A program made the position numbers and the translations under genes. From Tistrella mobilis (GTDB taxonomy: Bacteria > Pseudomonadota > Alphaproteobacteria > Tistrellales > Tistrellaceae), in contig NZ_CP121017.1 of the NCBI RefSeq assembly GCF_041468085.1, positions 558,001 through 622,000 on the forward strand: a stretch of DNA of 64,000 nucleotides. Direction: 5' to 3'. The notes below the pieces were generated by a model. That model had not been told where the DNA came from. It did not search any database and was given only the letters and a program-made list of their open reading frames with translations. Below are positions 9,065 to 14,128 of the stretch, in pieces (positions within the stretch are counted from its first letter, which is position 1; each line of letters starts with the position of its first letter).

Positions 9065-10708
9065 ATGGCCATCTTCACCTATCAGACCGTCGCCGCGATG
9101 CAGCAGCCGCCTGTGGGGGCCCTGCCGAGCCCGGGCGACACGGCGATCGTCGCCGGCTACCACATCTACGACGATGATGGCGGCGGTACCTTCCGTCTTG
9201 AAGTTCCGACCGGCCCGTATGCCGACAGGATCGACGAGGGCATGGTCCTCGACTGCGTCCGGTCCGACACCAACACGCGGATCGGGGTCTGGCGCCGGAT
9301 CGATCAGGGGCCGGTGCGGACGGCCTGGTACGGCATCGGCAATGTCAGGGCGAATGGCGCCACGACGGTGACGGTCTCACAAACGGCGGCGCAGATCGAG
9401 CGGGCGATCAATGCCGCGGGATTCGGTGGTGTCGTCGTCTTCAGCGGGACGATCACGCTGGACCGGACCGTTCACATCCCGACAACCACGCAGCTGAAGG
9501 GGGAAGGCGAGGGTTGGGACCGGCCGCTGATCAAGGCGGGGGAGAATCTCAAGGTCATGTTCACCCGCGCGTCATCCACGCGCATCTGGGTCACGGGCAT
9601 CAGTTTCGAAGGCTGGATCGATGGCAATGCGTCTCTGCCTGGCGACATCACGACCTCGGTGAACGGCTATGGGGCGCGGACCATCGGTTTCCTGCTCTAC
9701 AACACCACTGGTCGGGCAGATCTGGACAGCGAGTTCGCCTTCTGTCGCTTCTACAATATGCGCATGGGCATTGTCGGCTTCGGCCGCAACTTTCTTGTGA
9801 CCCGGACGCATTTCAGTTCGTGCCGCTACGGGATCGTGATTCATCGCGCGGCGAATTCGACGACCACCGATGTCACGATCCGCGGGTTCAATTTCATCGC
9901 CAACCGTTTCCACGGATGTGGCGGTCCCCGGCAGCAGGTCGACGTGGTGCTGAGGTCGTCGGTGACGGCCCAGAACACGGGGCTCGGTGCGTTCGAGGTG
10001 GGGGACATCGTCGTCTACCGGGCCGGAACTGCCCCAACCGGTCTTCGTGATAATATGCTCTACGTTGTCGGGGCGGACGGGGGTCTCTATGACCGTGCGG
10101 CACCAGGCCTGTATCATGAGCCGGCGACCGTCGCAGAGTGTGAGGCAATCAGCCCCACCAGCTGGGGCGCAACTGCTCAGACGGTTCAAAGGGTAAATGG
10201 TGGCGGGCTTTTCGACCGTTCGTCGACCTGCATCATGGTTGCAGGGCTGTCCAGCGCCCTGAAGGGCGGGCTGATCGCCGACTGCTATGTTGACGATTGC
10301 GGCCGCTTCTATCACGGCCCGATGGGCGATATGCGCATCACCGGCGTCACCGGCTACCGAGGCTATGAAACGCTCGTGGAAGCCGTGCCCGAGGGCGTGT
10401 CCCCGGAAGGCGAGGCGGTCAACGGCGCGATCACCAACTGCCAGTGGACCTGCGATCTCGCCAGCGCCACCACCTACAGACAGGGTCCGGCCATGCTGAT
10501 CCACGGCGCCGGGGTGCAGGTTTCGAACAACCTGATCAGTGATGCCGTGACCGAGGGCATCCAGGTGCGGGCCGATCATTGCCTGATCACCGGCAACGTC
10601 GTTCGCAGGTCGGGTGCGCCTCAGGGGATCACTGTGTCGAGTAAGCACTGCCTCATCGAAGGCAACCTCGTCGAATCTTCGGCATCGGACGGCCTCCTTG
10701 TGATCTGA
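9065..10708 (+). CDS. Right-handed parallel beta-helix (pectate-lyase-like) protein
   Basis: The 547-residue product begins with a small domain (about 1-90), then has a pectate-lyase-superfamily beta-helix with repeated turns such as CLITGNVVRRSGAPQGITV and CLIEGNLVESSASDGLLV near the C-terminus. Such folds bind or cleave polysaccharides, or form tailspike-like fibres; no catalytic residues can be assigned. There is no signal peptide. AAGAGG sits just before ATG 9065. Its codon choice is less GC-biased than the flanking housekeeping genes, which suggests transfer. The frame stops in mid-repeat at 10708, but a neighbouring frame (10702-10749) encodes one more matching turn, DLTNNTVGTNGVTIV, followed by TAG. 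A single-base indel has probably cut off the native C-terminus. Confidence 0.75.
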   Translation: MAIFTYQTVAAMQQPPVGALPSPGDTAIVAGYHIYDDDGGGTFRLEVPTGPYADRIDEGMVLDCVRSDTNTRIGVWRRIDQGPVRTAWYGIGNVRANGATTVTVSQTAAQIERAINAAGFGGVVVFSGTITLDRTVHIPTTTQLKGEGEGWDRPLIKAGENLKVMFTRASSTRIWVTGISFEGWIDGNASLPGDITTSVNGYGARTIGFLLYNTTGRADLDSEFAFCRFYNMRMGIVGFGRNFLVTRTHFSSCRYGIVIHRAANSTTTDVTIRGFNFIANRFHGCGGPRQQVDVVLRSSVTAQNTGLGAFEVGDIVVYRAGTAPTGLRDNMLYVVGADGGLYDRAAPGLYHEPATVAECEAISPTSWGATAQTVQRVNGGGLFDRSSTCIMVAGLSSALKGGLIADCYVDDCGRFYHGPMGDMRITGVTGYRGYETLVEAVPEGVSPEGEAVNGAITNCQWTCDLASATTYRQGPAMLIHGAGVQVSNNLISDAVTEGIQVRADHCLITGNVVRRSGAPQGITVSSKHCLIEGNLVESSASDGLLVI

Positions 10709-10764
10709 CCAACAATACGGTCGGGACCAACGGCGTGACGATCGTCTAGTGAGGCTGGGCCGAT

Positions 10765-10815
10765 CGATGACATTCCCATTACGGTTGCACATGATAATTA
10801 TGATTCTTTTATGAG
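10765..10815 (+). promoter_or_regulatory. AT-rich candidate promoter for the short peptide gene
   Basis: This is a clear AT-rich island in GC-rich surroundings, with TGACAT at 10768, GATAAT at 10793 and TTGCAC at 10785. No hexamer pair has ideal spacing, so the exact promoter is not fixed. It lies 85-130 bases before the peptide start. Confidence 0.3.
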
Positions 10816-10898
10816 TTGAATGGGTCCGTCTCCCATGAAACCATGAAGTCGACCGGATGGATGGGGTCCTCCGGTCTCTCAACCAAGGGAGACGTATC

Positions 10899-10949
10899 AT
10901 GCAGAACCGTAAGAAGAACGCCGACTATCTCGGCAGCCTGCTGGGCTGA
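10899..10949 (+). CDS. Very short peptide gene, 16 codons (MQNRKKNADYLGSLLG)
   Basis: ATG 10899 is preceded at 7 bases by AAGGGAGA, one of the best ribosome binding sites in this part of the window, and the frame closes with TGA 10947-10949. The product has a basic N-terminal half (N3-R4-K5-K6-N7) and a small hydrophobic end (Y10-L-G-S-L-L-G16), a leader/core-like division. An AT-rich candidate promoter lies upstream and two hairpins follow at once. The next gene, 121 bases away on the same strand, encodes an M29-like metalloenzyme. I do not recognise the peptide. It could be a precursor peptide, a regulatory leader peptide acting on the downstream gene, or chance; the ribosome site and the hairpins argue against chance. 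Confidence 0.5.
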   Translation: MQNRKKNADYLGSLLG

Positions 10950-10963
10950 TCCAGCGGCCTTCT

Positions 10964-10983
10964 CATCCGTTGATTGACGGATG
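10964..10983. repeat. Hairpin 1 after the short peptide gene
   Basis: CATCCGT (10964-10970) pairs with ACGGATG (10977-10983) across a 6-base loop, 15 bases after the peptide stop. It could stabilise the 3' end of a peptide mRNA. Confidence 0.5.
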
Positions 10984-10988
10984 CGGGG

Positions 10989-11026
10989 TGGCGTGGTGCG
11001 CGCACGCAGCGTGTCGCACCACGCCA
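10989..11026. terminator. Hairpin 2, a perfect 12-bp stem between peptide gene and enzyme gene
   Basis: TGGCGTGGTGCG (10989-11000) pairs perfectly with CGCACCACGCCA (11015-11026); the 14-base loop can form an inner CACG/CGTG stem. There is no strong T-run after it (ACTTGATGAAAAC), so it may act as a partial terminator or processing signal that lowers expression of the downstream enzyme relative to the peptide. Confidence 0.5.
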
Positions 11027-11070
11027 CTTGATGAAAACTTGCGTGTCATGTGATCAGGCAAGAGGTGGCA

Positions 11071-12201
11071 ATGGACCGGATCATCATCGACCCGACCGCA
11101 ATGCGGCAGTTCGGCGACCCGGAGGGCGCCACCTTCGTTTTCGTCACCAACCGGTCGGCAGCCGATCGCTTCGAGGTCCGGCTGGGGCGGGGGGGCGGCG
11201 GCTATGCCGGTGACATGACGCTGTTCTACGAGAAGGGGCAGTCCTTCTCCGAGATTCTGGACCAGATGCCCGAGACGGCGCATATCCTGGTCATTTCTCC
11301 CGACGTCTATTACAAGTCGCCGCCGGCCGGTACGATCGGCGCCCGGCGCAAGCTTCTGGCGCTGGCCTGCAATTCGACGCCGACCGACATGGACAAGCTG
11401 GCCCATGGCATCCGGATGATCGAGGCGACGGACCCGGCCGCCCAGCAGGAGCTGGTCGATCAGTTCTTCGCGACGGCCGAGCAGTCGGCGTTCATGGAGA
11501 TCGTCGATCCGCGCTACGGCACCCGTGCCCGCTTCGACCACATGTCCGACAAGTATGTCTGGAACGAACAGGCCGGTTTCCTCGGCTGGGGAGAGCAGCA
11601 GCTGGCGCCGTCGGGTGAAGTCAGCGCTCTGCCGCTGGATGTCTACGACTACAGCGCCGATCTCTCGCTCGGCATCGACGGGCAGATGGTGATCGAGGGC
11701 TATCCGATCCTGCACAACGGCGCGCCCAGCTATCATCCGGCCGATCAGGCGCGGATCCACAGCCGGTTGGCGGCCATGCAGCGCGGGCCGATGCTCGCCA
11801 CCATCGAACGCGGCCATATCGTCCGGCTCGAAGCCCTGACGCCCGAAGCGGCGCCGGCGGTGGATATGCTGGAGCGGATGTTCGATGTCGACAGCCGCTA
11901 CCGGATCATGTGGGAGTTCGGCTTCGCGGTGAACTGCACGCTGGAACTCTACGATGCCAACACCGCGATCAACGAACTCTATGGTGGTCGGACCGGCACC
12001 ATTCATATCGGCCTGGGGCTGACGCCGCACACCCAGTATCATCTGGACATCGTCTGCCCGGCGACCACGATTCTGGGCGATCGCGGCCAGCATATCTTCG
12101 GGCCGCGTGCGGAAGAGATCATCGCAGGCACGGCCGCCACCGGCCGCGCGGGCTCTCTGGTCCGCATCCGCAGCGCCGCCTGCGGCTGCGTCGCCGCCTG
12201 A
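11071..12201 (+). CDS. M29 aminopeptidase/NicX-like metalloenzyme, uncharacterised
   Basis: This 376-residue soluble protein has no signal peptide or membrane segment. Its C-terminal half resembles the M29 (aminopeptidase T/AmpS) and 2,5-dihydroxypyridine dioxygenase fold: PSGEV (E183), WEFG (E282), GTIHIGLG (H312) and YHLDI (H324, D326) line up with the metal ligands known for that group. The H312-H324 spacing is shorter than in classical M29 enzymes, and the N-terminal 160 residues are divergent. It ends in SAACGCVAA, with two cysteines close together. ATG 11071 is chosen because AGAGGTGG lies just upstream; a GTG at 11050 is in frame. A short peptide gene precedes it, and a GT1 glycosyltransferase converges on it. 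The family assignment comes from motif reading only, and the substrate is unknown. Confidence 0.55.
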   Translation: MDRIIIDPTAMRQFGDPEGATFVFVTNRSAADRFEVRLGRGGGGYAGDMTLFYEKGQSFSEILDQMPETAHILVISPDVYYKSPPAGTIGARRKLLALACNSTPTDMDKLAHGIRMIEATDPAAQQELVDQFFATAEQSAFMEIVDPRYGTRARFDHMSDKYVWNEQAGFLGWGEQQLAPSGEVSALPLDVYDYSADLSLGIDGQMVIEGYPILHNGAPSYHPADQARIHSRLAAMQRGPMLATIERGHIVRLEALTPEAAPAVDMLERMFDVDSRYRIMWEFGFAVNCTLELYDANTAINELYGGRTGTIHIGLGLTPHTQYHLDIVCPATTILGDRGQHIFGPRAEEIIAGTAATGRAGSLVRIRSAACGCVAA

Positions 12202-12219: not shown

Positions 12220-13512
12220 TCACCCGCCGCGCAACATGTCCTCGATCGCCAGCATGGCCGCATGCGCGCCGTCTTCGGCGCGCAGCCTGCGGCCGATCCG
12301 GCGGGCGGTGTCGGTCAGCGGGCCGTGGCGGAGCGCGCGGCGGATCGTGCGGCCCAGCCGGTCGCCGGTGCCGAGGCCGCCCGCCGCCAGCTGGCGCAGC
12401 CCCGGGCCCCGCAGGCCATAGCCGCCCGCCACGGCCCGGGCGGCCCAGAAGGGCTGGTCGGCGCCCCAGGGGCAGATCACCGCGGCGCGGCCGGCCATCA
12501 GCCCGGTCGCCAGCGTGCCCACCCCGCCGTGATGAACCACCAGATCGACATGCGGGAAGACCCGGGCATGGGGCATGCGGTCCAGCACCAGCACCCGGTC
12601 GCCGGCCAGGCGGTCCAGCGCCCGGCCGTCGATGCCGCCCCAGCCGGTGGTGACCAGCGCCGCCACATCGGCGCGCTCGATCGCGCGGGCCAGCGAACGT
12701 GCGACGCCGTTGCCGTCCACCCCGCTCATGCTGCCGAACCCGATATGGATCAGCGGTCGCCTGCGGGCGGTTGCGCGGGTGGCGAAGGCCGCCGCCTCGA
12801 TCGGCAGGCCGGTATCGGCCGTCTCGTCGTCTTCAGCGCGCCAGAAGCCGGTGGTTGCGACCTCGGGCCCCCAGTCGTCGATGCGTGGCAACAGGGCGGT
12901 TGAAAAGGCGTTGAGCACCAGCCGCGCCGCAGGGGGCGGCGCCTTGCGACGTGGTGGCAGACCCAGGATTTCCGCGCGCCAGCGATCGGTGCGGCCGGCC
13001 AGCGGTCGGGCGAGCAGGGGGGTGAGGCAATAGCTCGCCCGGTTCGCCCAGGGGCCCATATCGCGGGCGAACAGGGCGGCATTCGGCACCACGGCCGTGG
13101 GGGCGATGCAGGGCAGCAGCGCCACCTGCGCCCAGGGCACGTGCAGTGCCTGGGCCAGATCGGCGGCACCGGTGTATTTCGGATGGGCGATGATCGCATC
13201 GGGCCGGAAGCTGCGTCCGCGGGCGGTGGTCTCGAACAGCGCGTCGGCGACGCGGGTCAGCGTGCCGGCCCGGGCCAGCCGGTCGATCAGCCCGGGCAGG
13301 CCGGCGGCATGGGCTTGCCCCTGCCGGGCCATGTCGCGGAAATCGATGGCGAGTTTCAGATGCCGGGCGCCGCTTTCGGCGACCATTCCCGCATCGCCTG
13401 CGGGGGCGGCCAGCCCCACCTCGTGACCGCGTGCCACCAGCCGCGCCGCCAGATTGACGAAGGGGCGGACATCCCCCTCGGTACCGGCGGTGAGCAGCAG
13501 CAGGCGGGCCAT
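12220..13512 (-). CDS. GT1/MGT-family glycosyltransferase
   Basis: The 430-residue enzyme has the GT-B fold signs of the UGT/MGT family: LLLLTAGTEGDVRPFVNLAA at the N-terminus (acceptor domain), and VVHHGGVGTLATGL then PWGADQPFWA in the C-terminal nucleotide-sugar domain. Relatives transfer sugars to sterols, carotenoids, macrolides or peptides. ATG 13512 is chosen because the family N-terminus begins there, although the frame opens 33 codons earlier. It lies 16 bases after recR on the same strand, so it may share recR transcription, and converges on the M29-like gene with an 18-base gap. The acceptor is unknown. Confidence 0.8.
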   Translation of the reverse strand: MARLLLLTAGTEGDVRPFVNLAARLVARGHEVGLAAPAGDAGMVAESGARHLKLAIDFRDMARQGQAHAAGLPGLIDRLARAGTLTRVADALFETTARGRSFRPDAIIAHPKYTGAADLAQALHVPWAQVALLPCIAPTAVVPNAALFARDMGPWANRASYCLTPLLARPLAGRTDRWRAEILGLPPRRKAPPPAARLVLNAFSTALLPRIDDWGPEVATTGFWRAEDDETADTGLPIEAAAFATRATARRRPLIHIGFGSMSGVDGNGVARSLARAIERADVAALVTTGWGGIDGRALDRLAGDRVLVLDRMPHARVFPHVDLVVHHGGVGTLATGLMAGRAAVICPWGADQPFWAARAVAGGYGLRGPGLRQLAAGGLGTGDRLGRTIRRALRHGPLTDTARRIGRRLRAEDGAHAAMLAIEDMLRGG

Positions 13513-13528
13513 CGGCGGGGGCGTTCCC

Positions 13529-14128
13529 TCAGACCGGCCGCCGCGCCTTGAGCGCGGCCTGAATGGTACCGTCATCCATATAGTCGAGCGCGCCGCCCAC
13601 CGGCATGCCATGGGCGAGGCGGGTGATATTGGCCTCGGGTGCCGCCTCTGTCAGGCGGTCGGCGATGTAATGGGCGGTGGTCTGGCCGTCGACGGTGGCG
13701 GGCAGGGCCATCACCACTTCGGTGATGCCGCCTTCCGCCACCCGCGCCGCCAGTTTCGGGATGCCCAGCTCGTCGGGGCCGATGCCGTCGAGGGCCGAGA
13801 GCGTGCCGCCCAGCACGTGATAGCGGCCCCGGAAGGCGCCGGCCCGCTCCATCGCCCAGAGATCCGCCACCTGTTCCACCACGCAGAGCTGGGCGGGGTC
13901 GCGCCGCTCGTCCGCGCAGACCCCGCAAGGGTCGCGGGCGTCCAGATTGCCGCAGATCGTGCAGCTTTTGACCTCGGCCGCCGCCTTGGCCAGTGCGTCC
14001 GCCAGCGGCATCATCAGCGCCTCGCGCCGTCTCAACAGGGTCAGTGCCGCGCGCCTGGCCGAGCGCGGGCCCAGACCCGGCAGGCGGGCGAGCAGGGTCA
14101 CGAGCTTCTCGATCTCGGGTGCGGCCAT
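13529..14128 (-). CDS. recR: Recombination protein RecR
   Basis: RecR works with RecF and RecO to load RecA at gaps. The 199-residue protein has the N-terminal helix-hairpin-helix ([20 protein letters not shown]), a four-cysteine zinc finger starting [16 protein letters not shown] (about residues 57-72), and a Toprim domain from about residue 80. In most relatives recR lies directly after dnaX and ybaB; here those two are about 3.8 kb away, with other genes between. Confidence 0.97.

Follow-up and report, generated by a model that had tools for sequence, protein, structure and literature searches.

CgnB and CgnE are peptide-binding proteins of crocagin, a ribosomally synthesized and post-translationally modified peptide (RiPP) of Chondromyces crocatus. 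They are known from one natural-product pathway, and their chemistry is unsettled (PMC10070186). According to the crocagin report, CgnB carries a dinuclear site (E161, E252, E274, H280, H291, D293) that is broken in CgnE, no aminopeptidase activity was observed for either protein, homologues occur in about 100 genomes, and the precursor CgnA is a 21-residue peptide in which an Ile-Tyr-Trp core follows basic residues and an Asn (PMC10070186). We analysed a 64,000-nucleotide stretch of Tistrella mobilis DNA (contig NZ_CP121017.1, positions 558,001 to 622,000; hereafter the window), in which a 16-codon gene precedes one that encodes 376 residues and whose product is predicted to fold like CgnB and CgnE. 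The genome is that of an alphaproteobacterial Tistrella, measures 6.3 Mb, and has T. mobilis KA081020-065 as its nearest named record (99% identity in the 376-residue protein). We found that this pairing of peptide and protein recurs in four bacterial phyla, and we consider it probable that the pair forms a minimal RiPP-type biosynthetic unit.

The short gene encodes a 16-residue putative precursor or carrier peptide (MQNRKKNADYLGSLLG; 10899..10949, + strand), running from an ATG at 10899 to a TGA at 10947-10949. Its product has a basic half and a conserved, more hydrophobic half, as an original prediction made from the window's letters had proposed, and ends in the conserved heptapeptide YLGSLLG (10926..10946, +; family consensus Y[LT]G[STN]L[LI]G). 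The Shine-Dalgarno sequence AAGGGAGA named in that prediction is present (10885..10892, +), but stands six bases rather than seven before the ATG. A degenerate DNA pattern for roughly Y-L-G-[S/T]-L-L-G-stop matched once in the window (none in 100 shuffles) and once in the whole genome, at the 16-codon gene, with no match for the reversed-pattern control.

Loci with homologues of the 376-residue protein were collected by a pattern scan over 84,980 species genomes, which gave 63. Three partial or split matches (L067, L068 and L075) were dropped and two plasmid loci (L006 and L010) added, leaving 62, comprising 56 close and six distant loci (27-30% identity). The strains are not independent of each other; they include, for example, two of A. 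calcoaceticus and nine loci of one Streptomyces-like group. Across four phyla, 54 of these 56 close loci hold a counterpart short frame with a YLGTLLG-like ending; this bears out the expectation that a frame with a YLGSLLG-like end is conserved beside homologues of the protein. The motif scan itself found the peptide at 51 close loci (88 frames, 21 different peptides), and the peptides of L030, L025 and L056, read separately from it, raise the count to 54. Only L037 and L066 lack a peptide; one lies at a contig edge and the other is broken. Motif-ending short frames occur near 48 of the 62 homologue genes versus 0.2 expected in Markov shuffles, and none was found in 482 kb of distal sequence. 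A looser distal control gave one match in 485 kb, probably the real L025 peptide beside its second enzyme copy.

Motif scans fix most of the conserved residues, so conservation is to be judged on frames found by their ribosome site alone and on a codon comparison of four genera. A listing of short upstream frames by ribosome site, with no motif imposed, returned MKNRKKNAEYLGTLLG in Ferruginivarius, at three Acinetobacter loci and in Paraburkholderia. Frames located in this way, together with the window's own, show 48 synonymous versus 9 non-synonymous differences in 96 codon comparisons between Tistrella, Ferruginivarius, Paraburkholderia and Acinetobacter. At one A. calcoaceticus locus, four peptide copies differ from each other 11 times, and all 11 differences are synonymous. 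The heptapeptide YLGTLLG, seen at 41 loci, is encoded by 26 different DNA strings; the count of second-position differences in this tally (0 of 2275) follows from the choice of frame and is no evidence alone, only the codon freedom being informative. A four-letter Shine-Dalgarno core precedes the start in 81 of the 88 frames, 86 frames end in Gly and the other two in GY, and each of the 88 peptides has Ser or Thr within its last seven residues. The short frame is a genuine gene that regularly accompanies that of the enzyme. Other members of the family are MKNRKKNGQYTGSLLG (Nostoc linckia, seven copies), MKKIKVQKNRNYLGTLLG (Streptomyces) and VEKVAQKKIQVKKNDRYLGTLLG (Frankia). Two to seven copies of the peptide are present at 16 of 51 loci, and at 34 of 51 the peptide frame comes after the catalytic copy; in several cyanobacteria it stands 1.7 to 3.3 kb upstream of the catalytic gene, with the second enzyme copy between.

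At the six distant loci the YxGxLLG peptide was not found. Five of them (L010, L069, L070, L072, L073) have another short frame, ending in ..[KR]I[ST][KR]YGxY..L.., and none of this kind was seen at the sixth, L071. The distant Streptomyces subfamily has its own short upstream gene, ending in SISSRISKYGKYDRL[EQ]G (L010 5511-5633, L070 9500-9637, L072 9499-9636, L073 9477-9599), which in L010-L012 lies on plasmids near nonribosomal peptide synthetase and gntD-like genes; the short gene of Kibdelosporangium L069 ends in ..KITRYGDYGGLQA. The protein family is rare. Among 385 alphaproteobacterial genomes it was found in five at E 0.01, of which three are Tistrella and one was reached only at E 0.007; in a phylum sample of 398 genomes it was found in one, the window's own. 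Phage or viral carriage was considered and rejected, with no relative in viral contigs or phage records, as was a role in anti-phage defence, with no PADLOC match for the window protein.

The 376-residue protein (11071..12201, +; translation could instead begin at a GTG at 11050) has no match at E 1 in Pfam or NCBIfam and none among PDB sequences. The Pfam M29 model PF02073 has no match in the protein or elsewhere in the genome, and one among 34 homologues at E 0.15. An AlphaFold2 model built from a 33-row alignment is confident (mean predicted local distance difference test score, pLDDT, 89.5) except for the last 20 residues. The closest solved structures by Z-score are CgnE (Z 21.7, root-mean-square deviation (rmsd) 3.6, 290 of the 376 residues aligned) and CgnB (Z 21.7, rmsd 3.5, 291 aligned), followed by NicX (Z 19.8, rmsd 4.0, 291 residues, 12% identity) and the M29 aminopeptidases AmpT, PepS and AmpS (Z 13.5-15.0, rmsd 4.9-6.8). 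By Foldseek, CgnB and CgnE have the best TM-scores, higher than that of NicX. The M29/NicX-like fold and ligand set of the original prediction are therefore supported by the structural matches and by per-locus scoring of the ligands, while its remark that the system fits no peptide class did not survive: the predicted fold belongs with the peptide-binding proteins of crocagin.

All five ligands first proposed are present, and E302 adds a sixth conserved candidate absent from the earlier list. The predicted metal ligands E183 (11617..11619, +), E282 (11914..11916, +; predicted to bridge), E302 (11974..11976, +) and H312 (12004..12006, +) are invariant in a 34-row alignment, and H324-x-D326 (12040..12048, +) is kept in 33 of the 34 rows, the exception, L038, being a tail copy as described below. 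The six stand in the same order as in CgnB and at similar spacing, judged from printed residues rather than by one-by-one superposition; in this order E302 corresponds to Glu274 of CgnB (PMC10070186).

The disordered end of the protein (residues 357-376; 12139..12198, +; pLDDT < 50) contains a Cys-x-Cys element, C371-G-C373. Where there are paralogues, tail and metal site are mostly divided between them. Two protein copies are present at 41 close loci, and at 39 of these the complete set of six ligands belongs to a copy that lacks the tail, and the tail to the other copy. At least one ligand is lost from 35 of these 39 tail copies; the remaining four, all cyanobacterial, keep all six. Where there is one copy (14 loci), metal site and tail are joined in a single protein at 11, as in the window, and these 11 all keep EEEHHD; the exceptions are L037 (contig edge), L038 (its other copy cut by the contig start) and L064. 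In the last, from Paracaedibacter, a Cys-x-Cys tail-like stretch lies in a different frame immediately after the enzyme's stop codon (10960-11010). Most of the site has disappeared from the tail copy of one Streptomyces-like group, which still retains RRMNRVTSASCGCH or a near match; a like fold is predicted for this degenerate copy (pLDDT 88.8, best match CgnE). On a 67-row tree, from which 18 near-duplicate loci were excluded, the labels for tail copies and for metal-only copies require four and six changes, respectively, partly at the exception loci; hence the split is old and its history not simple. We infer that the metal site and the Cys-x-Cys tail work together. Plain M29-type trimming seems unlikely to be the main role, because of the ligand losses in tail copies and because no aminopeptidase activity was observed for CgnB and CgnE.

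We then compared gene neighbourhoods across the 62 loci (tblastn, flanks up to 10 kb). AzlC is encoded at 14 loci, six from Pseudomonadota and eight from the nine-locus Streptomyces-like group, where it has a different position; a DUF2817 protein is found at 23, an S9 peptidase at nine and a haem-oxygenase-like protein at 26. Three architectures recur. The minimal one consists of peptide, enzyme, AzlC and AzlD (Acinetobacter, Paraburkholderia, Ferruginivarius and IMCC1989). The Streptomyces-like one (nine loci) has a metal copy, peptides, a tail copy, an S9 peptidase (9), an RraA-like protein (9) and AzlC (8). The third combines two enzyme copies and the peptide with the haem-oxygenase-like protein and a partner (26 loci each) and the DUF2817 protein (23), and often adds genes for aspartate-semialdehyde dehydrogenase (15), an aspartokinase-like protein (14) and aldehyde dehydrogenase (16). 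The partner, for example the 262-residue protein at L030 9196-9981, has no convincing Pfam match. In Bacillus subtilis, AzlCD exports toxic amino acids such as 4-azaleucine (PMC11005379). Since two clades keep AzlC at different positions and others keep a peptidase or a DUF2817 protein, gene context suggests that a small amino-acid-like product is released from the peptide. In Calothrix the unit is directly next to a GCS2-family (glutamate-cysteine-ligase-like) gene (L060 11119-12480), relatives of which occur close to the unit at two Nostoc loci and, in Kibdelosporangium and Rhizocola, close to the distant subfamily.

On sequence and model evidence, then, the system pairs a peptide of 16 residues, dedicated to it and conserved in its C-terminal half, with a protein that is predicted to fold like CgnB and CgnE and has the signature of a six-residue metal site and a flexible tail with Cys-x-Cys. 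If the two form a minimal biosynthetic unit, the protein would bind the basic half of the peptide, by analogy with the binding of CgnA by CgnB and CgnE, and bring the YxGxLLG half to the metal centre. The Cys-x-Cys arm, which may act at this active site too (as a thiol or redox arm, for instance), would be supplied in cis in the window protein and elsewhere usually in trans by the metal-site-poor paralogue. The C-terminal half of the peptide would thereby be altered, and a peptidase (S9 or possibly DUF2817 where present, a housekeeping enzyme in Tistrella) would free a small amino-acid-like product, to be removed by the AzlC-type exporter where one is encoded. A first step by metal-assisted elimination or activation at the Ser or Thr found in every core, after the elimination proposed for CgnB, is a guess that we rate as rather unlikely; given the Ser or Thr in every peptide, such an elimination would need no oxygenase. 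Slightly better, yet still tentative, is the proposal of a third kind of peptide-scaffolded amino-acid biosynthesis, in which the CgnB-like metalloprotein with its Cys-x-Cys arm would build a toxic amino-acid analogue on or from an unusually short, 16-residue scaffold with a near-invariant terminal Gly, with no peptide aminoacyl-tRNA ligase (PEARL) or dioxygenase and with AzlC-type export.

Several observations weigh against the biosynthetic unit and its kinship with crocagin. The Foldseek E-value of NicX is level with or just above those of CgnB and CgnE, phmmer and profile searches of PDB sequences gave no CgnB or CgnE match, and the link to these proteins is by predicted fold, with 16-18% identity over the structural alignment. 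The metal site is complete in the four cyanobacterial tail copies, and at two cyanobacterial two-copy loci (L024 and L056) neither copy has the Cys-x-Cys tail. As to the neighbours, the haem-oxygenase-like matches tested fall below the Pfam cut-off, DUF2817 as a peptidase rests on weak similarity to M14-type amidases, and the tallies are drawn partly from related strains and common enzyme families. In the window, the genes from about 5.2 to 18.3 kb include no exporter, peptidase or oxygenase beside the unit, and the two AzlC genes of the genome lie elsewhere; therefore, a complete pathway there must borrow functions.

The strongest competitor is a carrier peptide, to whose C-terminal Gly an amino acid would be joined, modified by cluster enzymes, cut off and exported, as with pearlins or LysW-type amino-group carriers. 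We regard this as possible, at about the same low level as the scaffold proposal above. It would account for the near-invariant terminal Gly and for the AzlC exporters near the unit, and L030 combines an aspartokinase-like kinase, aspartate-semialdehyde dehydrogenase, an aminotransferase and a DUF2817 protein. This gene set resembles the LysZ/LysY/LysJ/LysK set. However, neither a PEARL (lantibiotic-dehydratase-like) enzyme nor an ATP-grasp ligase was found among the neighbours scanned, GCS2-family ligases occur at only five of the 62 loci and the L030 aminotransferase at one of the 62, and the L030 kinase and dehydrogenase resemble enzymes of the aspartate pathway and may only supply a free precursor.

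It is improbable that the peptide is a signal or bioactive peptide and the metalloprotein its processing aminopeptidase or an immunity factor. The M29-related fold, the several identical peptide copies at some loci and the hydrophobic C-terminal half would all suit such a role; the loss of the metal site in 35 of 39 tail copies, the biosynthetic neighbours at many loci and the lack of observed aminopeptidase activity in CgnB and CgnE (PMC10070186) speak against it. A crocagin-like system proper is very unlikely, even with the CgnB/CgnE-like fold, the six ligands, the basic leader and the metal-less second copy in its favour. The crocagin report describes CgnC in all of its two-copy clusters (PMC10070186). 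We found no Tyr-Trp core in any of the 88 frames and no CgnC-type 2-oxoglutarate dioxygenase among the window neighbours scanned or, apart from one PhyH protein in Nostoc L021, at the loci sampled elsewhere; the system is hence not that of crocagin. A leader-peptide attenuator or ribosome-arrest peptide controlling the enzyme gene, the main alternative of the original prediction and suggested by the short frame and the strong hairpins that precede the enzyme gene in Tistrella, fails as a general role because the peptide follows the catalytic copy at 34 of 51 loci and is multi-copy at 16 of them, and with its amino acids kept across phyla while codon choice is free we give it hardly any credence.

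In the window the 16-codon gene, a pair of hairpins and the 376-residue protein gene are flanked by a beta-helix protein gene on one side and a macrolide-type glycosyltransferase gene on the other. The 16-codon gene, the AT-rich stretch upstream of it and the two hairpins are all confirmed in the sequence as first described. The AT-rich, promoter-like island (10765..10815, +) lies 5' of the peptide gene, near the start of a block common to Tistrella genomes, and contains one weak sigma-70-like site at 10767-10795 (9 of 12 positions matched; 0.4 such sites expected in shuffles). The hairpins fill the space from the peptide gene to the enzyme gene (10964..11029, +; about 10964-10983 and 10985-11029). 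This stretch folds at -67.8 kcal/mol versus -46.4 in shuffles (standard deviation 3.55; z -6.0), with none of 200 shuffles as low, and its sequence is the same in the Tistrella relative L003. Since no T-run follows the long stem, a classical terminator is ruled out; nor is the pair a known RNA element, Rfam reporting only a tRNA and the signal recognition particle RNA in the window. The GT1 glycosyltransferase gene (12223-13611, - strand) adjoins the enzyme gene. The gene is real, as first noted, but the suggested link to the unit is not supported, a relative being present at one of the 62 loci, Tistrella L013; we therefore do not count it as part of the unit.

Three Tistrella genomes share 93-95% identity from 10760 onward, but not in the end of the beta-helix gene, which lies immediately before this point. 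In this gene (9065-10708) the 3' part (window 10117-10760) differs among the three genomes, with both flanks about 93-96% identical; its frame has 547 codons in the window versus 625 in L013, a gap that is partly a matter of start-codon choice. Other neighbours in the window belong to the truA, fmt, def, rmuC, recR, ferritin, HD, glyoxalase, AraC-type and ybaB families.

Neither this protein fold nor the notion that RiPP precursors accompany such proteins is new. Our searches of the open-access literature led to the crocagin report for the protein family and to pearlin papers for the carrier logic, and among the papers they listed none showed the peptide family, the division between metal site and tail, or the many two-copy systems of this kind; the crocagin paper's supplement, with its single-copy precursor candidates, lies outside that search and may list such peptides. 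A peptide-protein pair whose peptide stays almost unchanged in four phyla suggests a little-known route from a tiny ribosomal peptide to a small molecule. Here a predicted CgnB/CgnE-like fold comes with a far simpler set of partners and a short peptide that is nearly invariant, and paralogues divide the metal site and the Cys-x-Cys tail cleanly between them. In such a two-component system, the founding question of what CgnB/CgnE-type proteins do to a peptide becomes directly testable. If the product is indeed an exported amino-acid analogue, a ribosomal-peptide route would be added to this class of small toxins.

Compared with NicX, a 2,5-dihydroxypyridine dioxygenase, the protein has a similar fold and obtains its best Foldseek E-value, but there are no aromatic- or pyridine-catabolism genes among the neighbours scanned, and a peptide gene is present. 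The M29 aminopeptidases AmpT, PepS and AmpS share the fold core and the logic of a dinuclear site (PMC10070186); in contrast, the window protein lacks a Pfam M29 match and many paralogues of the family have lost the metal site. Mangotoxin-type haem-oxygenase pathways were set aside, their available description (PMC13185094) including no carrier peptide or CgnB-like protein. Pearlins, such as 3-thiaglutamate and the 3-thiahomoleucine of the T. mobilis tmo cluster, may share the suspected logic of an encoded peptide, a peptidase and an amino-acid-like product. However, no PEARL, MNIO or radical SAM enzyme was found among the window neighbours scanned, and no PEARL domain in the 10 genes of L030, other loci being sampled only; TmoA of the T. 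mobilis cluster is a different and much longer peptide than ours (PMC9303977).

The closest likeness is to crocagin. From the description of that system in PMC10070186, the two have in common the fold (predicted for ours), the ligand order E-E-E-H-H-D and a second copy with a broken site. Both peptides are short (21 versus 16 residues) and place basic residues and an Asn ahead of a core that contains Tyr; in this CgnA resembles the KKN..Y seen here. They differ in that the peptides described here carry YxGxLLG and no C-terminal Ile-Tyr-Trp (none of the 88 frames ends in YW, 86 end in G and two in Y), and in the Cys-x-Cys tail, the tandem peptide copies and the absence of CgnC among the window neighbours scanned. 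AzlC, DUF2817 and haem-oxygenase-like neighbours at many loci further set our system apart. antiSMASH 7 has a crocagin rule (PMC10320115), and some of the 'crocagin' calls in Streptomyces reports (PMC12566167) may be relatives of the family described here.

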